Positions 1 through 41,105 of a stretch of 41,105 bases of DNA are shown piece after piece (position 1 is the stretch's first letter; every line of letters begins with the position of its first letter). Source of the DNA: Scytolyngbya sp. HA4215-MV1 (GTDB taxonomy: Bacteria; Cyanobacteriota; Cyanobacteriia; Leptolyngbyales; Leptolyngbyaceae); assembly GCA_019359045.1 (NCBI GenBank), contig JAHHIA010000024.1, positions 1 through 41,105 on the forward strand. Reading direction: 5' to 3'. Below the pieces are notes generated by a model. That model made no database searches. It was not told the origin of the DNA and saw nothing but the letters and a program-made list of their open reading frames with translations. The position numbers were made by a program, and so were the translations under genes.

Positions 1-127
1 AATAATCCCCGATCGGCTGGGATGAGAAATAAATTGTCGTAGTCTGTGGGGTAAGCGCCATCTTCTGTGCTGACCTGCCCCGTTAACACCTCAAACAAGC
101 TGGGCTGATTGGGCTGTACCTCATGGT
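1..127. repeat. Terminal redundancy showing a circular molecule
   Basis: Bases 1-127 are identical to 40979-41105. The parA reading frame continues across the join without a break. This is the usual outcome of assembling a circle, so the unique length is 40,978 bp. Confidence 0.95.
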
Positions 128-6594: not shown

Positions 6595-7731
6595 TTAGCG
6601 ATGAATTGGCGCATACATCGATTCGCGATCTCCGGAAGCATCATCAAAAATCGCTCCCCGCATTGCTAAATCCTGCTTTTTTGCCTGAGACAGCCCTATT
6701 CCTTGCCCAAATTGAGCGTTAACGACCACAGCATCCCTCAGGGCAACCCTACTTAGGAAAGCCCCCCTCAGGTCAGCATCACTCAGGTCAGTCCCACTCA
6801 GGTCAGCATCAAACAGGTTAGCTCTACTCAGGAAAGCTCCCCTCAAGTCAGCCCCCCTCAGATCAGCCTCAAACAGGACAGCCTCCCTCAGGTCAGCCGA
6901 ACGCAGGAAAGCCCCACTCAGGTCAGTCCCACTCAGGAAAGCCGAACGCAGGACAGCCTCACTTAGGTTAGCCCCCCTCAGGTCAGCATCGCTCAAGTCA
7001 GCCTCCCTGAGTTGGCGCTTTGCCTGTGACTGAGTTTTGATGGCTTGAATCAACTCCCACTTAGTTGGCAATCTTGGATGCTCAGGCGCTTCTGGTGATT
7101 CATAACCCAAGATCCTGAATGCTGCAATTGGGCAGCCATTCATTTGGGTCAGTTCACCGGCAGCAATCCGCTCTCTCAACCGCTCAATGTCTTCTGAAGA
7201 CCCTTGAATGGTGATTTTGATACTGCCCAGTTTGATGTCAGTAATTCGGATCGTATCTCCCCCATAGCTCTTGAGTACCACTTCCAGTGTTGCTTTGAAA
7301 GTGTCATTGACGGATTCAAGATCACCGTCCAAAACAATTTCGGCTTTGGTTTGCCCCTGGGCATCCTGAACGGTGATGGTTTTTCGAGCGATCGCTAATG
7401 TCGTTCCCACTGTTTGACCAGCATCAATTGCACTCATTTCACCGACCTCTGGTTGTCCAAGCTCCTCTGATTGTCTAATCCCTTTCTTGCTCTCTAAGTC
7501 TAAGATTTTCTGCCAATCCAGCTTCAATCCCTCACAGACCCGTTGAAAGGTATCGAGTTGGACGGGCTGTTGGTGAAAAAACTTCGTGACCGCAGTGCGA
7601 GCCAGTAACTGAGCCTCTGCAAAATTTGCTTTTGAGCCAAACCCCAGTCGAATCAAGGCGCTTTCTGCCTGCTCAATCCCTTGCACTGAAGCAATCACCG
7701 TCATGCGTTTTCGGGATTTGGATGCAGTCAT
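6595..7731 (-). CDS. Pentapeptide-repeat protein with N-terminal HTH-like and alpha/beta domains
   Basis: From ATG 7729-7731 the protein has 378 residues. Residues about 12-75 form a helical domain (ASVQGIEQAESALIRLGFG ... FQRVCEGLKLDWQKILDL) that also heads many cyanobacterial NTPase and repeat proteins. Residues about 115-200 form an alpha/beta domain with IRITDIKLGSIKITIQGS. Roughly 19 consecutive pentapeptides of the A(D/N/F)Lxx type follow near residues 255-350, enough for about five coils of a right-handed beta-helix. This is the layout of signalling or adaptor proteins rather than a simple DNA mimic. An in-frame ATG at 7786-7788 exists, but an inverted repeat (7752-7789) sits over it and looks like control DNA, so the shorter start is preferred. 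It is monocistronic and its function is unknown. Confidence 0.75.
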   Translation of the reverse strand: MTASKSRKRMTVIASVQGIEQAESALIRLGFGSKANFAEAQLLARTAVTKFFHQQPVQLDTFQRVCEGLKLDWQKILDLESKKGIRQSEELGQPEVGEMSAIDAGQTVGTTLAIARKTITVQDAQGQTKAEIVLDGDLESVNDTFKATLEVVLKSYGGDTIRITDIKLGSIKITIQGSSEDIERLRERIAAGELTQMNGCPIAAFRILGYESPEAPEHPRLPTKWELIQAIKTQSQAKRQLREADLSDADLRGANLSEAVLRSAFLSGTDLSGAFLRSADLREAVLFEADLRGADLRGAFLSRANLFDADLSGTDLSDADLRGAFLSRVALRDAVVVNAQFGQGIGLSQAKKQDLAMRGAIFDDASGDRESMYAPIHR

Positions 7732-7751
7732 GAGGTTAGCGCAGTTTGGAT

Positions 7752-7789
7752 AATGACTTAAATGAGGCAAACGTGAGGCATAAGTCATT
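7752..7789 (-). promoter_or_regulatory. Inverted repeat in front of the pentapeptide gene
   Basis: AATGACTTA (7752-7760) and TAAGTCATT (7781-7789) form a perfect 9-bp inverted repeat. The 20-bp spacer holds a tandem TGAGGCA. The position just upstream of the chosen start at 7731 suggests an operator. Confidence 0.5.
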
Positions 7790-8959: not shown

Positions 8960-9762
8960 ACTTGGCATCCTTTGAGAAAGCCAGCGCTGCGATCGAATCG
9001 GGTCACAGCGTTTTGGTGTTGGGGGAAGCTGGGAGCGGGCTAGATGAGTTTGCGATCGCGTTGTATGACCACTTTGCTGGGGCGTGTCATTGTGCGATCG
9101 CGACCTATAAGGGCAGTGGCAAAAAGTTTTTTGAGGCGATCGCGGAGCAGTTGGACATCCCCACTGAGGTGACGGACGACAATGGCAAAACCAAGGCACT
9201 CACCATGGATGCCTTGAAGGAAGAGATTGCCCAAAATGTGAATGAGGACACGCTACTGATCTTCCCAGAGGCAAAGCGGCTGACAACGGGGATTCGCTAC
9301 TGGCTGGAAGACTTGATCGAGGCGGGGGTAAAGGTGGTGTGTCTGGCGGCGGCGAACCCTGGACGCGACATTTTTTTAGGGATGCTGGAGATTGAGCTGG
9401 AGCTGCCGAGCGATCGCACGATTCGGGAGGTGATGGAGTCGGAAGCAGTGCGCCAGGGCATGGCGTTGAGTCAGTCTCGGTTGGCGGAGTTGCAACCCCT
9501 GGCAGGACGCAACCCCATGTTGGCAAAGAAGGTGATCCAGCGGGAACGGCTGGGCATTCGGCAAGATGTGCAACACACTCAGTATGTGGTGATTATGCCG
9601 GTGCTGGTGGCGGCGCTGTTTGCGTTTGCGGTGGTGCGGTTTGTGGGTTTGGGCACGAACAATAAGAGTCTCTACATCACGGGTGGGGTGGCGTTGGTGG
9701 CGGCGATGGCGTTGAAGCAGTTGGGACAGGTGCGGGGGGCGAGGAAGCGGTTGGGGCAGTGA
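8923..9762 (+). CDS. Membrane-anchored AAA-like ATPase with degenerate Walker A
   Basis: This is a 279-residue protein. Residues 34-40 read GEAGSGL where a P-loop would have GKS/T, so the nucleotide-binding lysine is absent. TLLIFPEA at about 110-117 fits Walker B. The overall pattern (KFFEAIAEQL, then an acidic turn and MDALKEEIA) resembles the ExeA/TniB branch of AAA proteins. Two hydrophobic segments lie at about 215-240 and 248-268, followed by a basic tail (GQVRGARKRLGQ). The start is GTG at 8923, overlapping the previous gene. Its last 38 codons are present a second time, diverged, at 11549-11662, beyond an inserted HNH/Rpn cassette. It probably positions DNA or a protein complex at the membrane; ATP hydrolysis is doubtful. 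Confidence 0.65.
   Translation: MAQSPEPGAGCIDLASFEKASAAIESGHSVLVLGEAGSGLDEFAIALYDHFAGACHCAIATYKGSGKKFFEAIAEQLDIPTEVTDDNGKTKALTMDALKEEIAQNVNEDTLLIFPEAKRLTTGIRYWLEDLIEAGVKVVCLAAANPGRDIFLGMLEIELELPSDRTIREVMESEAVRQGMALSQSRLAELQPLAGRNPMLAKKVIQRERLGIRQDVQHTQYVVIMPVLVAALFAFAVVRFVGLGTNNKSLYITGGVALVAAMALKQLGQVRGARKRLGQ
9649..9762 (+). repeat. Intact-gene copy of a duplicated 3' end (partner at 11549-11662)
   Basis: The last 37 codons plus stop match 11549-11662. Nucleotide identity is strongest over 9671-9758, including 39 identical bases from 9681. The encoded final 28 residues (from YITGGVALVAA) are identical. Similarity ends at the stop codon. Confidence 0.85.
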
Positions 9763-9792: not shown

Positions 9793-10221
9793 CTACTCTC
9801 CGGGCGGGTGCTGTCCTGTGGCTCGAAGTGCTTGGCGCAGGTTAACAACTCCTTCCCGATTCAGCCGTAAGGTATTCACGGTTGCTCGACCGATGGGCGT
9901 TAATCCGATGATTAATGTGGTGTCCTCACTCCAGGCAAAGTGCTCACTCCAAACCATTGTGCGTGGGTTATAGAGCGGTGCGGCTTGAGCATCGGTTGGA
10001 TCTAGTCCCTTGATTTTGGTGTACTTGTAGTTGTTGCAGCCCTGGCAGGCGAGGGCTAAATTCTCAGCGATCGTTTCACCTCCCCGACTGATTGGGATGA
10101 TGTGTTCAATCACTAGGGATTCGATCGCAAACTTTGCCTGACTGCGGCAATATTCGCAACACCCGTTTCCTCGATCGAATACCAACTGTTTTAACGTTAC
10201 GGGAATGTAGTCTCTAGGCAT
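9793..10221 (-). CDS. HNH endonuclease of cassette 1
   Basis: This 142-residue protein has a classical zinc-supported HNH fold: CCEYC (Cys22, Cys25), IEHIIP (Glu39-His40) and CQGCNNYK (Cys59, Cys62, Asn63). A family-specific C-terminal half follows with NPRTMVWSEHFAWSED and GLTPIGRATV. It is nearly collinear with the HNH protein at 26648-27073, including the ends YIP...L and GxHPP. The start overlaps the upstream partner gene by 8 bp. It faces the membrane ATPase gene tail to tail, with 30 bp between the stops. HNH enzymes of this size are often free-standing homing-type nucleases. The flanking duplication of the ATPase 3' end suggests such a role here, by inference. Confidence 0.9.
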   Translation of the reverse strand: MPRDYIPVTLKQLVFDRGNGCCEYCRSQAKFAIESLVIEHIIPISRGGETIAENLALACQGCNNYKYTKIKGLDPTDAQAAPLYNPRTMVWSEHFAWSEDTTLIIGLTPIGRATVNTLRLNREGVVNLRQALRATGQHPPGE

Positions 10222-10588
10222 AGCTGGGAGGCTGGATGCCTAAATCGTTCATCAGTTGCAGCAGGGGAACTTGACGAACGGTTGCCAGACTGACCAGGGC
10301 TTCTACTCGTTGGGCGGTGAGCAGTTCGATGCGATCGCTTAACTGCAATAACTCCTCATACTCGTCGTGGGTGAGGGTTTCAGCATCCCGTTTCTGGGTT
10401 AAGTGGTGATAGCGCTGATGCAACTCTGTGGGGATGCCTTGATTGATTTGCAATAGCAGTGAGGCTTCTTCTGATGGCAGGATGGGTGCTTTACGACGGG
10501 CACGCAGCAGCAAAATCCGATTGACCAGGGTTTCTAAATCGGTTTCGTTGAGTTGGTTGGCGGCGTTGAGAAGTTCGTCGAGGGACAT
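10214..10588 (-). CDS. Partner protein of the HNH nuclease (cassette 1)
   Basis: From ATG 10586-10588 this encodes 124 helical residues. A basic patch lies at about 30-36 (LLLRARRK), and a heptad-like C-terminal half contains ETLTHDEYEELLQLSDRIE. The partner of the second HNH gene has a matching stretch (GTLTDAEQLELMALRKEAD) at the same distance from its end. Both are followed immediately by the HNH gene, so the two genes form a repeated module. Possible roles are an inhibitor, a specificity subunit or a regulator; the sequence alone does not decide. An upstream TTG-type start to 10615 is possible. Confidence 0.6.
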   Translation of the reverse strand: MSLDELLNAANQLNETDLETLVNRILLLRARRKAPILPSEEASLLLQINQGIPTELHQRYHHLTQKRDAETLTHDEYEELLQLSDRIELLTAQRVEALVSLATVRQVPLLQLMNDLGIQPPSYA

Positions 10589-10714
10589 GATTTGCCCTGG
10601 GTGTGAGTGCTTCAATCCTATCGTATGAGGGAGGGGCGATCGTGGTGGGGAAAACGCCTGGATTATGGTTGCTGTTGCCGGACGATGCGTTGAATCTCTG
10701 ATCGTCTGCCAGGA

Positions 10715-11503
10715 TCAGGAAGATGGTTGCTGTACAACGCGACGGATGACTTCTATATCGATGTTGGTCTGTTGAGCGATTTGTTCAATGGTCATGCCTG
10801 TCTTGAGCAATAGCGGGACTGTCACTGCGAGAATTTCTTCGCGTCCTTCTTCTTTGATTTCTTGATAAACCTTGGATTCTTCCAAACTCTTACCTAGCAT
10901 GGCTTCTACCTCTTCACGGCTGAGATTAGTGAACTTGTAAACGACGATTGTGGTAATTACGTCTATTATCTCGTCTCTGGAAAGGATGCCGAGATCCTCT
11001 TGCTGCACTCGGTCAATCAATTGTCGGGCGCGTTCTGCCATCTGGGCTTCTGGCACGATCGTTAACCGCATCAGGTCAATGCCGACAGAATGGGGGACTG
11101 TATCGCCCAGTTCATCCAGATAGATGCGTTGGACTTGGGAACCGTTGAGCAACGATCGATGAATGGTGGTGTTTTCTGGTTCCAGGGTGCGAGAAGGGAA
11201 GATGACGACCCCGAACCAATCGTCGTAGAGCGATCGATTGCGATAGAGGTAGAGCAAGGATTCTGAAAAGAAGCGGTAATAGAGGTCTTCATCTTTTTGA
11301 AACTGCACCTCACAGAAGAAGACTGTTTTGGGGGTGGCATTGTCGGGTGGCAGGAAGACTCCATCAATACGGAAGGTGGTTTCTTTGACTTCGACGGATT
11401 CAAAACGGTAGCCCCGCGCCTGTTCGGGAGCCTGGTCGAGCAGGGTGAAGAATAGGCTGGGGAAGCGTTTGAAGATTTGATAGAAAATCGCGTCGCGTTT
11501 CAC
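10715..11503 (-). CDS. Rpn/PDDEXK family nuclease-transposase protein (DUF2887-like)
   Basis: This 262-residue protein starts with MKRDAIFYQIFKRFPSLFFTLL, the standard opening of the cyanobacterial DUF2887/Rpn group. The PD-(D/E)XK core is visible as FRIDGVF (Asp47) and VFFCEVQFQ (Glu65-x-Gln67), followed by FFSESLLYLYRNR. The C-terminal part has the usual helical tail (GREEILAVTVPLLLKTGMTIEQIAQQTNID). Rpn proteins are DNA endonucleases that promote recombination in E. coli. The gene lies in the same strand and cassette as the HNH pair, between the two copies of the ATPase 3' end. It may be part of the cassette or an earlier resident. Confidence 0.85.
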   Translation of the reverse strand: MKRDAIFYQIFKRFPSLFFTLLDQAPEQARGYRFESVEVKETTFRIDGVFLPPDNATPKTVFFCEVQFQKDEDLYYRFFSESLLYLYRNRSLYDDWFGVVIFPSRTLEPENTTIHRSLLNGSQVQRIYLDELGDTVPHSVGIDLMRLTIVPEAQMAERARQLIDRVQQEDLGILSRDEIIDVITTIVVYKFTNLSREEVEAMLGKSLEESKVYQEIKEEGREEILAVTVPLLLKTGMTIEQIAQQTNIDIEVIRRVVQQPSS

Positions 11504-11548: not shown

Positions 11549-11662
11549 CTAGGAACTGAGAGTCAGAGCGTTTACATCACGGGTGGGGTGGCGTTGGTGG
11601 CGGCGATGGCGTTGAAGCAATTGGGGCAGGTGCGGGGTGCACGGAAGCGGTTGGGGCAGTAG
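11549..11662 (+). pseudogene. Displaced, diverged 3' end of the membrane ATPase gene
   Basis: Thirty-seven codons and a stop encode LGTESQSVYITGGVALVAA and onward, against LGTNNKSLYITGGVALVAA in the intact gene. The last 28 residues are identical, while third codon positions differ (for example CAA/CAG, GGG/GGA, GCACGG/GCGAGG). The stop is TAG rather than TGA. There is no proper 5' part, because the sequence before it is the start region of the Rpn gene on the other strand. The synonymous pattern points to a second natural allele rather than a fresh duplication. Confidence 0.85.
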
Positions 11663-12286: not shown

Positions 12287-13318
12287 ATGATGTCCATTAC
12301 CCATGCCTGCATCGCCGCTGCTGGAACATCCCTCATTCTGGGCACTGCCAACCCGATCGCATTAAGCTTAGCGATCGTTGGTTCCCAATTGCCCGACATC
12401 GACACCACCACCTCCGCGATCGGTCAAATTTGCTATCCCCTCAGCCATTGGATTGAAGATCGGTTTCCTCATCGCAGCATTACCCATTCCTTGTTAGCAA
12501 CCGTTGGTTTGACCGTGGTGAGTGTGTCGATCGGGTGGATGCTTGGACAGGTCTGGATCGCGATCGCCCTGCCACTGGGGCATCTGCTCGCTTGTTTTAG
12601 CGACACCTTTACCAAACAAGGGGTGCAACTCTTTTACCCCTATCCTGCCTGGGCAGTGAGTGTGAGCAATCCCCGGCGACGGCTGAAGACGGGGGGAGCT
12701 AGTGAATTGTGGGTATTGGGTGGGGCGATCGCCACGCTGATTCTGGCGCTCTACATTGCGACTGGCGGCGGCATTACGCAGCAGTTCAGTCACACGCTGG
12801 GTATGCGAGAAGGCGCGATCGAACTCTATAACCAAAAGGCAAGCACTCATCACATCTGGGCGGAGGTGCGGGGGGTGTGGGCGAGCGATCGGCGGCGTGC
12901 CGATGGGCGCTATTGGATTGTTGCCAATGAGGGCAACGAGTTTATTGTCAGTGATGGCAAGGGGTTTTATAAGACCGGGCAGCAGTTGATTGCAGAGCGG
13001 TTCTCGGCGAGTGCGGGAGCGGCGGCAACCACTCAGAGCTATAGTTTGAGCTTCAATGATGAAGAGGTGGCTCCTAAGCTGCAAGAGGTGGCGGCAGCGG
13101 TGCCGGGGGCGCTGATGTTGGTGACGGGGCAACTGGTGATAGACGCGCCGGAGTCGGTGCAGGCTGCGATCGCGCCGAATCAGTTGCAAACGCTGGGGTT
13201 GTCGGGGAATACGGTGACGATGGTGGTTCACCCGATGGAACTGGCGCTGGTGCAATTGCGAGATCAGTATGGGGTGGGCACTCTAATGGTGAGGGTGGTG
13301 AGTCCGCGTCCGCAGTGA
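12287..13318 (+). CDS. YdjM-like membrane metal-dependent hydrolase
   Basis: The first 160 residues match the YdjM/LexA-regulated inner-membrane hydrolase family: THACIAAAG, then SQLPDIDT, then DRFPHRSITHSLLAT, then GHLLACFSDTFTKQGVQLFYP. The conserved His and Asp residues sit between four or five membrane segments. The remaining 180 residues form a soluble C-terminal extension of unknown fold, with a beta-rich first half (HIWAEVRGVWASDRRRADGRYWIVANEGNEF). Total length is 343 residues, longer than typical YdjM. The family is poorly characterised biochemically but common on cyanobacterial plasmids. The envelope genes 13579-15385 follow on the same strand after a repeat-filled gap. Confidence 0.75.
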   Translation: MMSITHACIAAAGTSLILGTANPIALSLAIVGSQLPDIDTTTSAIGQICYPLSHWIEDRFPHRSITHSLLATVGLTVVSVSIGWMLGQVWIAIALPLGHLLACFSDTFTKQGVQLFYPYPAWAVSVSNPRRRLKTGGASELWVLGGAIATLILALYIATGGGITQQFSHTLGMREGAIELYNQKASTHHIWAEVRGVWASDRRRADGRYWIVANEGNEFIVSDGKGFYKTGQQLIAERFSASAGAAATTQSYSLSFNDEEVAPKLQEVAAAVPGALMLVTGQLVIDAPESVQAAIAPNQLQTLGLSGNTVTMVVHPMELALVQLRDQYGVGTLMVRVVSPRPQ

Positions 13319-24830: not shown

Positions 24831-25575
24831 AATAAACCCCCGTCCCCTACCTGACTACACAGTGCGGGAAAGTCCCAAGGCAAAGCACATTCGCCTGAAA
24901 GTTTCGATTGAGCATGGAGTTGAGGTCATCGTACCCAAAGGGTTTGATCAGGATCGAATTCCTGACATTTTGCAAAAGAAGCAGACTTGGTTGGGGGCAG
25001 CCAGTGATCGTATTGAAGAGCAACGCAAATTCCTGGAGCCAAAACCATTTGGGAACTTACCCGAATATGTCGCACTACGGGCCGTTGGGGAAGATTGGAA
25101 AGTTGAGTACCAGGCTACCGCATCTTCAAAAGTCGCAACCGCAGAGAAACCCGGTAACCGTCTGATTGTGCGCGGCAACATTGAAGACGAATTTGCCTGT
25201 AAATTAGCCCTACACCGTTGGATTGCCCGCAAAGCCCATTCTTACCTGGTGCCATGGCTGAAGGAGGTGGGTGAAATAAACAATCTCCCCTTTTGCAAAA
25301 CGTTGGTCAAAGGACAAAGAACTCGCTGGGCAAGCTGCTCTCGCCACAAAACGATCAGTATTAATCACAAGTTACTCTTTTTGCCACAGCATTTAGTTCG
25401 CTATGTCTTTATTCATGAGCTGAGCCACACAATTCACATGAGCCATTCCAAAAAGTTTTGGGCATTGGTTTGTCTAAGGGAGCCAGATTATCAGAAACTG
25501 GACGATGAACTTAGAGATGCTTGGCGTTATGTTCCTGCTTGGATGGAAAAAACGAAGCGTGACTCAGGTGACTGA
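24808..25575 (+). CDS. YgjP/M48-like (DUF45) metallopeptidase of the type I operon
   Basis: This 255-residue protein starts at GTG 24808, inside the end of hsdR. It has the YgjP (WLM/SprT-like) signature: KHIRLKVSIEHGVEVIVPKG near the start, RTRWASCSRHKTISINHKLLFLP, and the zinc site FIHELSHTIHMSHSKKFW (His203, Glu204, His207, His213). Genes of this family are frequent neighbours of type I restriction operons and may regulate HsdR by proteolysis or process DNA-protein conjugates. Neither role is shown here. The overlap argues for a dedicated function with HsdR. Confidence 0.85.
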   Translation: MLTLKPREINPRPLPDYTVRESPKAKHIRLKVSIEHGVEVIVPKGFDQDRIPDILQKKQTWLGAASDRIEEQRKFLEPKPFGNLPEYVALRAVGEDWKVEYQATASSKVATAEKPGNRLIVRGNIEDEFACKLALHRWIARKAHSYLVPWLKEVGEINNLPFCKTLVKGQRTRWASCSRHKTISINHKLLFLPQHLVRYVFIHELSHTIHMSHSKKFWALVCLREPDYQKLDDELRDAWRYVPAWMEKTKRDSGD

Positions 25576-25610
25576 GAACTATCTCATGGCATTCTGTTCC
25601 CTGCCATGGA

Positions 25611-25754
25611 GTGCTCTGGGTCATTGAGCAAGCCTATAGCAGCCAATGGAAATCTTCCACACAACTCTGCCAATGGCTACTAACACTGGAGCAAATCAAC
25701 CGTTGTCTTCCCCAATCCGAACTAACACAACTCCGACAAAAACTAGGCTGTTGA
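25611..25754 (+). pseudogene. C-terminal fragment of an unidentified gene
   Basis: The frame VLWVIEQAYSSQWKSSTQLC and onward to LTQLRQKLGC ends at TGA 25752-25754 and has no credible start. It is helical and looks coding. It faces another gene end six bases away on the other strand (25760-25894). Parent unknown. Confidence 0.35.
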
Positions 25755-25759
25755 TAGTG

Positions 25760-25894
25760 TTAATCTAGCCAGCCCTGAGCCTTCAACCGTTGCCACGCCT
25801 TCTGCAAATGGATGGGCTTAAACAAATTTTGACTCCAACGGTAGGGAAGCTGATGAACGAATTTTCTCGACTGATCATGCCGAGAAGGTTTGTG
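25760..25894 (-). pseudogene. C-terminal fragment of an unidentified gene
   Basis: Forty-four codons encode HKPSRHDQSRKFVHQLPYRW, then NLFKPIHLQKAWQRLKAQGW, ending at TAA. Read on the minus strand it lies just after the stop of the displaced RHH fragment (25899-26007), so it may be what originally followed the RHH gene. An ATG in another frame overlaps that stop, which hints at a frameshifted second gene of an operon. Confidence 0.4.
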
Positions 25895-25898
25895 TCAT

Positions 25899-26007
25899 TC
25901 AAACCAGCTTCACCAACTTCTGATACTGTCGCTCCAACGCCGCTACCCGCTTGCTCAGAGAACTCATTGAATTCAAATCCGTCTTACCGAGGTACTGAGC
26001 GATCGCC
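25899..26007 (-). pseudogene. Displaced 3' end of the RHH gene at 27096-27317
   Basis: These 109 bp match 27096-27204 with four substitutions. They encode the same last 35 residues (AIAQYLGKTDLNSMSSLSKR and onward) and the same TGA, so every difference is synonymous. Similarity stops at the stop codon on one side and at GATCGCC on the other, where a run of CCCCATC units begins. Confidence 0.88.
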
Positions 26008-26038
26008 CCCATCCCCCATCCCCCATCCCTCATCCCCA
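26005..26038. repeat. Short tandem repeat (CCCCATC-type heptamers)
   Basis: About four tandem units of CCCCATC with small variations lie exactly at the junction between the displaced RHH end and the HNH cassette. Cyanobacterial genomes are rich in such heptamer repeats. Confidence 0.65.
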
Positions 26039-26240
26039 AAACAGAACTCCCCTGGCTGAGGCACCAGAGGAGCGATCCTTCAGAAAATCGTTTGTTCGAT
26101 GACCAGAAGCGCGACACAGATAGCAGTCTAGTGGCTGTAGTGAATCCCGCGATAGTGTGGGTCAATGCGTGCTCTCCAACCACCACCCGCTGTTTCGGTA
26201 AGGCGACAGATTAAAATGACAGAAAAAGGTCGAGAATTCC

Positions 26241-26642
26241 GTGGCTGAATCCATCACTCTGCAACTCCCCGATCGCCTTTACCAGCGACTCGTCAACACA
26301 GCTCAAGCCATCCAGCGTCCCTTGGAAGAAGTGATTGTGCATGCGCTGGAAGTTGGCGGTCCACCTGATTGGGATGACGTTCCCGCAGAATTTCAGGCAG
26401 ACCTGGCAGCACTGGATCGGTTGGATGATGCCACTCTCTGGCAGATTGCCCGCAGTCGCAAAACGGCAGATGAAATGACGCGCTACGACGAACTGCTGGA
26501 ACGCAATCAAGCGGGGACACTCACCGATGCTGAACAATTAGAGTTGATGGCACTCCGAAAAGAAGCAGATCGCTTTATGCTGTGCAAAGCCCAGGCTGCG
26601 GTAATCCTGCGCTGGCGTGGGCATCAAGTCCCTTCACCGTAA
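26241..26642 (+). CDS. Partner protein of the HNH nuclease (cassette 2)
   Basis: This 133-residue protein starts at GTG. Its N-terminus (ITLQLPDRLYQRLVNTAQAIQRPLEEVIVHALEVG) reads like a ribbon-helix-helix or MetJ/CopG-type DNA-binding segment. The C-terminal half contains GTLTDAEQLELMALRKEADR, which parallels the partner in cassette 1 (ETLTHDEYEELLQLSDRIE). Five bases separate its stop from the HNH GTG, so the genes are coupled. With the other copy it defines a two-gene module: a helical partner, then an HNH nuclease. The roles of regulator, inhibitor or specificity factor are all open. Confidence 0.65.
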   Translation: MAESITLQLPDRLYQRLVNTAQAIQRPLEEVIVHALEVGGPPDWDDVPAEFQADLAALDRLDDATLWQIARSRKTADEMTRYDELLERNQAGTLTDAEQLELMALRKEADRFMLCKAQAAVILRWRGHQVPSP

Positions 26643-26647
26643 TTCTT

Positions 26648-27073
26648 GTGTCTGCCTACATTCCCATTGACCTACGGAGCCAAATTGAGCAAGCCGATCG
26701 CGGACGCTGTTGCTACTGTTTGACCCAAACTGTGAACAGTGGCATTCCGCTCTGCTACGACCATATCGTGCCGCGTTCTAAAGGTGGGACAACAACCTTT
26801 GAGAATGTATGTCTTGCCTGTCGCTCGTGCAACGAGTTCAAGTCTGACCTGAGCGAAGCTTCAGATCCGTTGACTGGAGAGACAGCATCTCTATTCAATC
26901 CTCGACAACAGCATTGGATCGCTCATTTTGCCTGGAGTGAAGATGGGACACGAGTAGAAGGATTAACACCGATAGGTCGGGTAACAGTGCTGGCATTGCA
27001 AATGAATCACGCAATGATCGTCGTTGCACGAAGACGTTGGGTCTCCAGTGGTTGGCATCCTCCGGATGATTAA
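26648..27073 (+). CDS. HNH endonuclease of cassette 2
   Basis: From GTG 26648-26650 this encodes 141 residues that align end to end with the HNH protein at 9793-10221. The motifs are GRCCYC (Cys21, Cys24), CYDHIVPRSKGG (Asp38-His39) and CLACRSCNEFK (Cys58, Cys61, Asn62). The family-specific NPRQQHWIAHFAWSEDGT, GLTPIGRVTV and final GWHPP follow. An earlier in-frame ATG (26582) lies inside the partner gene and would add unrelated residues, so the GTG is preferred. The gene is convergent with an RHH gene, stop to stop 22 bp apart, the same geometry as in cassette 1. Confidence 0.9.
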   Translation: MSAYIPIDLRSQIEQADRGRCCYCLTQTVNSGIPLCYDHIVPRSKGGTTTFENVCLACRSCNEFKSDLSEASDPLTGETASLFNPRQQHWIAHFAWSEDGTRVEGLTPIGRVTVLALQMNHAMIVVARRRWVSSGWHPPDD

Positions 27074-27095
27074 GCAGCGATCGCTCCCTCATTGC

Positions 27096-27317
27096 TCAAA
27101 CCAGTTTCACCAACTTCTGATACTGTCGCTCCAGCGCCGCCACCCGCTTGCTCAGAGAACTCATTGAATTCAGATCCGTCTTACCGAGGTACTGAGCGAT
27201 CGCCTCCTGCACAATCTCACTTTCACGCTTCCCCGTCTCCTGACAAATCGCCTGAATTTGCTCCTTCCAGCTATGGGGCACCCTCGCCCCCACCATCGGC
27301 TTCTGACCCTTGCTCAT
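27096..27317 (-). CDS. Ribbon-helix-helix-type DNA-binding protein
   Basis: A 73-residue protein from ATG 27315-27317: MSKGQKPMVGARVPHSWKEQ, then IQAICQETGKRESEIVQEAIAQYLGK, which is a strand followed by two helices in the RHH/CopG pattern. The C-terminal part (SSLSKRVAALERQYQKLVKLV) is a short coiled coil. It starts 15 bp after the DUF2188 stop and is probably co-transcribed with it. The 3' end is duplicated at 25899-26007 on the far side of the HNH cassette. Longer readings upstream run through the DUF2188 gene and are not credible. Confidence 0.75.
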   Translation of the reverse strand: MSKGQKPMVGARVPHSWKEQIQAICQETGKRESEIVQEAIAQYLGKTDLNSMSSLSKRVAALERQYQKLVKLV

Positions 27318-27331
27318 AGCGATTCTTGAAT

Positions 27332-27619
27332 CTAGATTTTGGATTGTGACGCAGGAGTGCTGTTTAACCCACTGAGAAAACTGGGGTAAACACTGTACCT
27401 GGGTCTGTAAGGCGTGTAGTTTCGGTAGTCCTTGCGATCGCGTACTTCCCCTTTGCGGTTGTGGATCAGCAACTCCGATCGTTGATTCATTGCCACGATG
27501 CAACCAAACTCGATCGCTTCCCATTGGGTTGTAAAAATTTTAGTCGCGCGGCTATTCCCTTCACCTTTGACAGCCCACCCCTCAGGATGGCGAATCACGT
27601 GTTGATTTTTTCTGGACAT
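27332..27619 (-). CDS. DUF2188 family protein
   Basis: The 95-residue product matches the DUF2188 signature: KNQHVIRHPEGWAVKGEGN, then ATKIFTTQWEAIEFGCIVA, then RSELLIHNRKGEVRDRKDY. Its C-terminal 25 residues are unrelated and Pro/Tyr/Ser-rich. DUF2188 is a small beta-alpha fold of unknown function, widespread on bacterial mobile DNA. It is followed after 15 bp by the RHH gene, so the two may act as a pair. An alternative start three codons upstream (27628) is possible. Confidence 0.8.
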   Translation of the reverse strand: MSRKNQHVIRHPEGWAVKGEGNSRATKIFTTQWEAIEFGCIVAMNQRSELLIHNRKGEVRDRKDYRNYTPYRPRYSVYPSFLSGLNSTPASQSKI

Positions 27620-27838
27620 TGGTTGCACCTCTGTTGTTTTCGCTGAAAACGGAGTTGACCTTTCGCTGTTAGAGTGCCCAAGCTCAGATAGCCAATCACG
27701 ATCGCAAACTCAGTTAGCCCAGTTGACCTTGACCTGATGTTCCTTTCTAGCTTCCAACCCATTCGCAACAAGAGAGGGTATTTTGCAATAAAAGCCATCA
27801 AAAATTCTCGTCTCAGCCGGAACCCTTGAAAAGACTGT

Positions 27839-27881: not shown

Positions 27882-28427
27882 ATGCCCAAAGTAAATCGTA
27901 ACGGTCAGGCGGTGGTGTTGACTGAGGATCAACTGGCGGAACTCTTTGCCACGTTAGAGCTACCCCATCGGTTGGTGTTTCAGATTTGCTATTACACCGC
28001 AGCACGGGTGGGGGAAGTGGTGCAGCTTCAAGCAGAAGATATTGTGGCAGGCCGCATTGTCTACCGAGCGCAGACTACCAAGACCAAGACCACTCGCGAT
28101 GTAGCGATCGCGCCTCCCCTGGCGGCAGCATTAAAAGCGGTGGAATTACCCCGGCGTGGCTATCTCTTTCCCGGTCGAGTCAACAACCATCTGACGACAC
28201 AGGCAGCAGATAAGGCACTTCGGCAAGCTTGTGATTATTTGGGTTTCAAAGGAGTCAGCACCCACAGCTTCCGACGATCGCTGCTGACCAAAATGCATTT
28301 TGAAAAAGGTCACTCGCTGAAGACGCTTCAGCAAATTACCAAGCATGAGGATATCGGTAACCTAGCGAGATATTTGGATATCGGGCAACAAGAGGCGGAT
28401 GCAGCGTTGTGTTCGCTTTGGGGTTAG
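27882..28427 (+). CDS. Minimal tyrosine recombinase/integrase
   Basis: At 181 residues this is only the catalytic domain of a tyrosine recombinase, lacking the usual N-terminal core-binding domain. All active-site residues are recognisable: TAARVGEV (Arg42), TKTKTT (Lys67/69), THSFRRS (His128, Arg131), TKHEDIG (His155) and LARYLDIG (Tyr164). It should cut and rejoin DNA at a specific core site. The 15-bp inverted repeat immediately upstream is a candidate target. A GIY-YIG gene follows six bases after the stop, and a diverged copy of the recombinase C-terminus lies beyond it (28988-29065). It might resolve plasmid dimers or move cassettes. Confidence 0.85.
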   Translation: MPKVNRNGQAVVLTEDQLAELFATLELPHRLVFQICYYTAARVGEVVQLQAEDIVAGRIVYRAQTTKTKTTRDVAIAPPLAAALKAVELPRRGYLFPGRVNNHLTTQAADKALRQACDYLGFKGVSTHSFRRSLLTKMHFEKGHSLKTLQQITKHEDIGNLARYLDIGQQEADAALCSLWG

Positions 28428-40493: not shown

Positions 40494-41105
40494 GACCCAA
40501 TGCCTCAATGATTTTCTCGAATGGGTATTGCAGTTCGGTTTGACCGATATCCGAGAGCAACTTGCCCTGGCGGATGGCATTCTTATATTTCTCAGACTCT
40601 CGGATCGAGGGCAGGATTGGGATGTCGCTGGCAAACTCTTGCATGGCAGCAATGTTCTCTCGCCCTTCCATGGTTTGGGTATTGCCAACCCAGCGATCTC
40701 GGAAGGGAACAATTCCCAAAATCTTGCCTGTGAATGCCATCAGGTTTGCCTGCTCATTGAGAAAATCCAAGGTATCGATCAGACTGTTCATGCCTTTGAC
40801 GTTGGCTTCTACAGGAATCAGGACATGATCCGAAGCTCCTACCGCAGTCAGGCAGAGTTGCGATCGTGAGGGCTGGACATCGATTAGGACATAGTCAAAC
40901 AGTGCAGCCACAGACTTCAGCCGCAGTTTGAGAATAAATGCCCCAGTGCCGCTACTGCTGAGGAAGTCGGAGACCTTAAATAATCCCCGATCGGCTGGGA
41001 TGAGAAATAAATTGTCGTAGTCTGTGGGGTAAGCGCCATCTTCTGTGCTGACCTGCCCCGTTAACACCTCAAACAAGCTGGGCTGATTGGGCTGTACCTC
41101 ATGGT
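40486..41105 (-). CDS. parA: ParA-type partition ATPase, main part (start lies at 272 across the junction)
   Basis: This part of the ParA gene runs from the window end to the TGA at 40486-40488. It encodes the remainder of the ATPase: FEVLTGQVSTEDGAYPTDYD, then LFLIPADRGLFKVSDFLS, then the Walker B-like region FDYVLIDVQPSRSQLCLTA, then VLIPVEANVKGMNSLIDTL, all typical of ParA. There is no N-terminal DNA-binding extension, so it is a small type Ib-like ParA (254 residues in total). Bases 40979-41105 repeat 1-127 and must be counted once. It is followed, with an 8-bp overlap, by the parB-like gene. Confidence 0.9.
   Translation of the reverse strand, partial: HEVQPNQPSLFEVLTGQVSTEDGAYPTDYDNLFLIPADRGLFKVSDFLSSSGTGAFILKLRLKSVAALFDYVLIDVQPSRSQLCLTAVGASDHVLIPVEANVKGMNSLIDTLDFLNEQANLMAFTGKILGIVPFRDRWVGNTQTMEGRENIAAMQEFASDIPILPSIRESEKYKNAIRQGKLLSDIGQTELQYPFEKIIEALGHE

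Follow-up and report, generated by a model that had tools for sequence, protein, structure and literature searches.

Architecture of two cassettes in a cyanobacterial contig

The window, i.e., the whole stretch of 41,105 nucleotides analysed here, is one contig of the 6.62-Mb genome of Scytolyngbya sp. HA4215-MV1, which is assembled in 33 contigs. It carries two cassettes of the same geometry, in each of which an HNH nuclease gene and a small partner gene are nested between two copies of the 3' end of a target gene (Table 1). In cassette 2 the target is an RHH (CopG-like) gene: one copy of its end, the attached copy, completes the intact gene, and the other, the displaced copy, lies on the far side of the partner. 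The two copies align over 109 bp without gaps and are identical at 105 positions; the four differences (CTG/TTG, GTG/GTA, CTG/TTG, and AAA/AAG) are all synonymous, and the homology ends with the RHH stop codon. The HNH gene stops at 27073, convergent with the RHH gene and 22 bp from its stop at 27096. The two inserted genes are small and adjacent, with the partner stop at 26642 and the HNH start at 26648, and the displaced copy abuts a run of heptamers. The original prediction had read all of this correctly, namely the four silent differences, the convergent arrangement, the contact with the heptamer run, and the geometry shared with cassette 1 despite an unrelated target, a geometry that extends to other loci.

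Table 1. Features of the two cassettes and their flanks (window coordinates)
Feature	Position	Strand	Basis or remark
Cassette 1, intact target gene, 279 aa	8923-9762	+	no Pfam match; AAA-like by eye
Cassette 1, HNH gene	9793-10221	-	translation, Pfam search
Cassette 1, partner gene	10214-10615	-	translation
Cassette 1, extra DUF2887 gene	10715-11503	-	PF11103, E 2.2e-77
Cassette 1, displaced 3' end of target gene, stop included	11552-11662	+	repeat comparison
Gene beyond the displaced copy of cassette 1, YdjM-like by eye	12287-13318	+	directly follows the target gene in 6/9 relatives
44-codon open frame plus stop	25760-25894	-	adjoins displaced stop; weak matches, possible macro-domain gene remnant
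Cassette 2, displaced copy of RHH gene 3' end	25899-26007	-	same 35 residues, four synonymous differences
Cassette 2, heptamer array (CCCCCAT)	26006-26037		inner edge of displaced copy
Cassette 2, array-to-partner stretch	26038-26240		between heptamer array and partner gene
Cassette 2, partner gene, 133 aa	26241-26642	+	N-terminus RHH-like by eye; no family above cut-off
Cassette 2, HNH nuclease gene	26648-27073	+	GTG start inferred from family alignment; ORF opens at 26582
Cassette 2, attached copy of RHH gene 3' end	27096-27204	-	repeat comparison
Intact RHH (CopG-like) gene, 73 aa	27096-27317	-	translation; attached copy forms its last 109 bp
DUF2188 gene, upstream of the RHH gene	27332-27628	-	PF09954, E 1.8e-18

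The RHH gene stays intact, and the insertion is thus tolerated by its target. Its product matches PF01402 (E 0.01) and a RelB-like antitoxin model (E 3e-4), both below the curated cut-offs, and the HNH protein of cassette 2 matches PF01844 (E 8.5e-9) and a PtuB model (E 8e-11). For the segment 26008-26240, no DNA match was present in the loci searched. The open frame beyond the displaced stop is plausibly a gene fragment, going by weak plasmid matches (E 7e-3 and worse), with three of the six records annotated as encoding a macro-domain protein there. In the two plasmid records inspected for this, its peptide weakly matches the C-terminal end of macro-domain proteins encoded behind DUF4433 genes; it is perhaps a remnant of a DarTG-like pair. 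In cassette 1 the repeats lie at 9652-9760 (attached) and 11552-11660 (displaced) and are 87% identical.

The nature of the module

Twenty aligned HNH proteins share CxxC, HI, GG, N, AC..CN, and K positions, and 77 of 126 end in HPP plus a few residues. An ORF of 55-190 aa adjoins the HNH gene in 119 of the 126 loci, 56 of these showing an LTxxE-type motif, and the consensus start of the partner appears RHH-like by eye. The best PADLOC models for the HNH protein are those of PtuB from Septu (PtuAB), and these match beyond the catalytic core. However, unlike in Septu, Pfam and PADLOC searches recovered no ATPase, and hence no PtuA, in the HNH-partner pair and no PADLOC model for the partner, which is small and without a family above cut-off; a Pfam search likewise found no methyltransferase in the two genes of the insert. 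The two small adjacent genes also recall type II toxin-antitoxin systems, a likeness reinforced by the insertion pattern of PIN/VapC and DUF5615 loci described below. In contrast to curated systems of that type, the partner has no curated family.

The fold predicted for the HNH protein has a mean pLDDT of 70, lower over the HNH core, and of the 69 PDB matches that it gave at E up to 10, none reached E 0.001. When the family profile was used to search sequences, HNH domains from IscB- and Cas9-like proteins came up. Among named organisms, the closest relatives of the window HNH gene are cyanobacterial; two scans of viral contigs did not find a relative of the cassette 2 HNH protein and gave one weak match to that of cassette 1, over residues 6-34. 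From sequence, the module may have a toxin-antitoxin-like or defence-like role.

Enrichment of bracketing repeats around small modules

HNH loci (given below as L numbers, with genomes as G and contigs as C numbers) were drawn from the genome of the window itself, from 40 loci of a genome collection, and from 80 regions of family genomes, the last being the best-scoring part of the matches listed; overall the work drew on 42 genomes plus sampled loci. In each, the 250 bases after the HNH stop were compared with the stretch 200-1500 bases before the HNH gene. Direct repeats hug the pair in 24 of the 121 HNH loci with enough flank, as against 10/360 control positions in the same loci and 11/608 random positions in 795 kb of the window's own genome; inverted repeats were seen in one of the 121, and CDF-efflux loci gave none in 44 tests. 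Wider flanks (1000 and 3000 bases) with a looser cut-off raise the count to 32 of 124 for direct repeats, with four inverted. Of the 121, four (L153, L158, L181, and L164) duplicate other loci and none of these is a hit, which leaves 117 distinct loci. The resulting Fisher P values for 24/117, 5e-9 against the control positions and 1e-12 against the random ones, are optimistic because the loci are related. Three more loci (L032, L052, and L055) are near-identical orthologues, and four loci of the family genomes are identical to named cyanobacterial records.

Repeat length among the 24 hits ranges from 43 to 239 bp within the test windows, two Sorangium repeats being longer with wider flanks. 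The start of one copy falls between 3 bases before and 201 bases after the HNH stop. In 16 of the 24 the other copy is next to the partner, with its end 265-624 bases ahead of the HNH gene, and in eight it is farther off. A survey of repeat positions, which covered all 24 HNH hits and, of the nine toxin hits described below, all except L320, identified one copy as the tail of a recognisable gene in seven loci: RHH, AAA-like, HsdS-like, CDF, and rlmI-like genes beside HNH pairs, and ureF and a short gene (L239) beside toxin pairs. Other repeats lie near gene starts or at no recognised gene. The names HsdS, rlmI, CDF, ureF, AAA-like, YdjM-like, VapB, and DUF433 were assigned by eye; the AAA-like gene was also searched, with no match in Pfam.

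The 24 hits include other kinds, namely L140, where a module is repeated, L172, with a second fragment of the partner, attC-like repeats (C10 of the window's own genome, G000), and large Sorangium repeats (L038 and L044), which were read by eye as radC-like. At L172 (G034:C38) the HNH gene is followed by a duplicate of the first part of the partner gene, 98% identical, as though an insertion had interrupted a second such module. At L012 (G000:C10, near 57347) the HNH pair is flanked by repeats of ~125 bp that start with TAACA and end with TGTT(A), with a further copy upstream; by eye these resemble integron attC sites. Elsewhere on the same contig, at 393094-394794, a repeat of 55-93 bp occurs in several copies, with small module genes between them that look HicAB-like by eye. 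Heptamer repeats are known in cyanobacteria, and tandem arrays of heptamers occur in 4/24 repeat-flanked HNH loci, 0/102 others, and 9/1000 random 700-bp windows of the own genome, an association that may be partly circular because in some loci the array lies inside the repeat.

Such nesting is seen beyond the HNH pairs. Repeats bracket the module in 5 of 27 DUF5615 toxin loci (30 taken, 27 testable) and in 4 of 30 PIN/VapC toxin loci, which when pooled (9/57 versus 10/360) gives P 3e-4. The view that the nest is special to HNH cassettes is therefore not supported, and the HNH nuclease does not seem to be required for it. PIN-type toxins are RNases, and the finding that their modules are nested likewise suggests that cleavage of DNA by the module is unnecessary. 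Repeats also surround other kinds of sequence: across the 795 kb of the own genome, a survey for repeats of 45-400 bp, with a similarity of at least 70% and a spacing of 350-3000 bases, returned 15 pairs, including one cluster of small module genes, gene families, and intergenic repeats that flank ordinary genes. In the window the same survey returned two.

Empty sites and synteny

One empty site belongs to an HNH locus of G024 (L149), where a module of little more than its two genes stands behind a CDF-efflux gene and the HNH stop codon lies within the displaced tail. Three of seven sister species (G019, G020, and G022) are without the module and collinear with both flanks, and in them the CDF gene runs directly into the gene that follows the displaced tail in G024. 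Of the other four, G021 is missing the beginning of that following gene, and the downstream DNA of G018, G017, and G023 is different. A comparable case is the VapC pair behind ureF in G020 (L317/L328). One of seven sisters, G018, is without the pair and shares collinear DNA on the displaced side, at 84% over 757 bp; in G019 the pair is present together with a displaced ureF tail; G022 and G024 have the pair, with no displaced tail found; and in G021, G017, and G023 no match to the VapC module was seen. At both loci the repeat is single in the empty allele, and synteny supports the same for cassette 1.

At L176 (G030:C48) a DUF5615 pair and an HNH pair stand in series among three copies of the end of an rlmI-like gene, and the sister G031 has one copy of that gene end and neither module. 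G031 is also without some ~0.9 kb that follows the last copy in G030. For L133 and L174 the downstream sides are present in sisters and the upstream sides were not found; G019 has the L133 insertion too, repeats included.

The original prediction had further proposed that the displaced edge of cassette 2 preserves the original locus. This idea stands for cassette 1, the target gene of which abuts a homologue of the 12287-13318 gene in six of nine relatives (35-50% protein identity). In two closer relatives, other frames intervene between target and neighbour (1404 bases in G021 and 966 in G017), and a copy of the target's tail is absent from this intervening DNA; one of the nine has no full homologue of the neighbour there. 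For cassette 2 itself, the idea found no such backing: DNA resembling 25500-25898 occurs in none of six loci with an RHH relative (G034, G011, G035, G009, G024, and G028; for G035 only ~160 bases after the gene were compared). Only G024 and G028 have a DUF2188 gene beside the RHH gene, and in these the RHH frame is disrupted, by an internal stop in one and by separation into two pieces in the other. The open frame at 25760-25894 was accordingly rejected as proof of the original locus, since similar downstream DNA is absent from all six. Relatives of the RHH gene were also found in five plasmid records (up to 53% identity; three inspected), and there was no informative empty site for cassette 2 among the loci searched.

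Two alleles or one duplicated stretch

If the two copies of a gene end arose by duplication of a single stretch, one of them would be free to decay, and a synonymous fraction of ~0.24 is expected among the codon differences. We compared eight copy pairs from seven loci, chosen for a recognised gene end, with two pairs each from L176 and ureF and with L021, L036, and L239 left out. The synonymous/nonsynonymous counts are 4/0 for cassette 2, 8/4 for cassette 1 (all four nonsynonymous ones at the end of the repeat away from the stop), 8/12 for C14, 2/1 for L149, 4/0 and 3/0 for L176, 5/3 for ureF of G020, and 10/6 for ureF of G019. Together these amount to 44 synonymous versus 26 nonsynonymous differences. 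The probability of 44/70 is 6e-12 at 0.24, 9e-5 at 0.40, and 0.011 at 0.485, the latter two rates being margins that we set for selection acting on the attached copy and for a transition bias, respectively; without the two most divergent pairs, 26/34 are synonymous (P 8e-4 at 0.485). This excess over simple decay indicates that the copies probably began as different functional alleles, and the original interpretation of the cassette 2 ends as two alleles of one gene end gains support both from that cassette and from the pooled pairs.

In ureF of G020 the last five codons differ synonymously between the copies. Four of these five in the displaced copy are the codons of the empty allele in G018, as is the stop, and two of the four match no other sister. 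G019 and G020 have a common junction between VapC and the tail despite different downstream flanks, which suggests that the module moved between lineages together with the tail sequence; the body of the G019 ureF gene is closest to those of G018 and G022. Other pairs speak against this. The differences in cassette 1 that can be polarised by relatives fall on the displaced copy, with the attached copy matching the relatives, which is also what plain duplication followed by decay predicts. Nonsynonymous changes mark the displaced copies of C14, L149, and ureF, along with stops in C14 and indels in L149, and the displaced copy of C14 is a case of plain decay.

Origin of the nested arrangement

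Taken together, these data lead us to favour, at about an even chance, a reading in which the partner and HNH genes form a module, toxin-antitoxin-like or defence-like, that reached the plasmid when a copied gene end recombined. On the incoming DNA the module would have stood beside the last ~100 bp of a related allele of the RHH gene, a crossover with the resident gene would have fallen within this stretch, and the resident gene would now end in the incoming (or a hybrid) in-frame tail, its own tail having been pushed to the far side of the module. Thereafter the two gene ends might act as homology arms for further moves. The recombination was presumably of the RecA type, either as a single crossover of a circle or through one homologous and one illegitimate junction, homology-facilitated illegitimate recombination being a known process. 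The donor allele is a postulated one, and neither a donor molecule nor a circle was seen. The repeats, their enrichment, the empty sites of one HNH and one VapC locus, and the synonymous excess are the observations from which this reading starts; against it weigh, besides the unseen donor and the derived or decayed displaced copies just described, the want of a near-relative empty site for cassette 2, the lack of a homologue of either window target beside any other HNH locus examined, the sisters that are not fully collinear at the CDF locus, the two ureF sisters in which no displaced tail was found, the occurrence of ordinary genes that are also bracketed by repeats, and the many repeats without a recognised gene end, to which the allele test does not apply for that very reason. 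More tentatively, and with somewhat less confidence than in the particular case, toxin-type modules of cyanobacteria, HNH pairs included, could in general be gene-tail-capped cassettes with their own homology arms, which homologous recombination moves into any genome possessing that gene, whatever lies downstream, without a transposase or cutting of the target.

Insertion with long target duplication, whether transposition-like or by template switching, would also give repeats of ~100 bp, with copies identical at the start and the displaced one decaying. We consider this rather unlikely as the main explanation, yet it accommodates several observations well, including the location of repeats near gene starts and away from any recognised gene as well as at 3' ends, the decayed displaced copies of C14 and L149, and the derived state of the displaced copy in cassette 1. 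It is the preponderance of synonymous changes over the eight pairs, and the final ureF codons of G020 with their agreement with the empty allele of G018, that it does not readily explain. Homing is less probable still. By analogy, the HNH protein would cut a cassette-free RHH gene ~100 bp before its stop, and repair would copy in cassette and tail while displacing the native tail. The conservation of the HNH motif residues is in keeping with this, and the same anatomy is described, in the portion of the source available, for atp6, atp9, cox2, and nad3 of Glomus (PMC3630166). However, PIN/VapC and DUF5615 modules are nested alike at a similar frequency, the recognised targets vary from locus to locus, and none of the other HNH loci examined lies beside a homologue of either window target. 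With the PIN and DUF5615 controls, HNH-specific homing was rejected as a general cause. Finally, ordinary tandem duplication, repeated elements, or assembly error that merely happen to bracket the pair might account for those of the 24 hits that are of other kinds (L140, L172, the own C10, and the Sorangium L038 and L044); as an account of the whole this is very improbable in the face of the enrichment over controls, the recurrence in independent genomes, and the empty sites. Simple tandem duplication was rejected in view of the controls and the empty sites.

Relationship to known systems

Insertion with long target duplication was reportedly described for restriction-modification (R-M) systems by Nobusato et al. 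(2000) and Furuta et al. (2010). Going by the available portions of three papers (PMC3031569, PMC3874152, and PMC1643837), this is the closest known kind of insertion, and the long target duplications of R-M units are the nearest precedent for the cassettes. As far as those portions describe them, both comprise a small unit of selfish type, with no transposase seen and with target-derived direct repeats of ~100 bp. They differ in that the payload here is an HNH gene with a partner (or a PIN or DUF5615 module) rather than an R-M system, that gene 3' ends are kept in frame, and that the copies look like different alleles.

A second parallel is provided by the mobile ORFs of fungal mitochondria, which in the accessible text of one report form hybrid genes with an endonuclease ORF between an inserted and a displaced native C-terminus (PMC3630166). 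The elements of Glomus and that of Allomyces atp6 share with the cassettes the order of attached new C-terminus, endonuclease ORF, and displaced C-terminus. The two C-termini of Glomus atp6 are given there as 63.5% identical in DNA and 91% in protein, and the synonymous-only comparison in that text is of the native end with a close relative (PMC3630166). In contrast to these elements, as that text presents them (PMC3630166), the cassettes have an HNH rather than a LAGLIDADG endonuclease, a second gene, a variable orientation to the target, and counterparts with other toxins nested alike; as the PIN/VapC and DUF5615 modules indicate, the arrangement here does not seem to depend on the endonuclease. 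Among the matches listed in the open-licence literature, judged by titles and the beginnings of abstracts, none concerned duplications of this kind around cyanobacterial HNH-partner or toxin-antitoxin modules.

The spread of small toxin-antitoxin, restriction, and defence modules that have no transposase is a long-standing puzzle. If the general reading is true, gene-tail-capped cassettes would provide the mechanism that has been wanting for insertion with long target duplication. A mechanism based on copied gene ends would account for the scatter of such modules beside unrelated genes, for the survival of the host gene, and for the short decayed gene ends next to the modules; the displaced copies would also be insertion scars, for which any genome could be searched.

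Other features of the window

The first and last 127 bases of the window (1-127 and 40979-41105) are identical, and the contig is probably circular with a 127-base assembly overlap. An array of 15-bp repeats occupies 6715-7011 within the ORF 6595-7788. Next to cassette 2, an integrase gene (27882-28427) is divergent from the RHH gene; an integrase homologue is present in two of the six RHH-relative loci, and of three records inspected two, plasmids of Scytonema sp. HK-05 and Gloeocapsa sp. PCC 7428, are annotated with this divergent arrangement as well, so that the integrase/RHH pair is probably part of a plasmid backbone.
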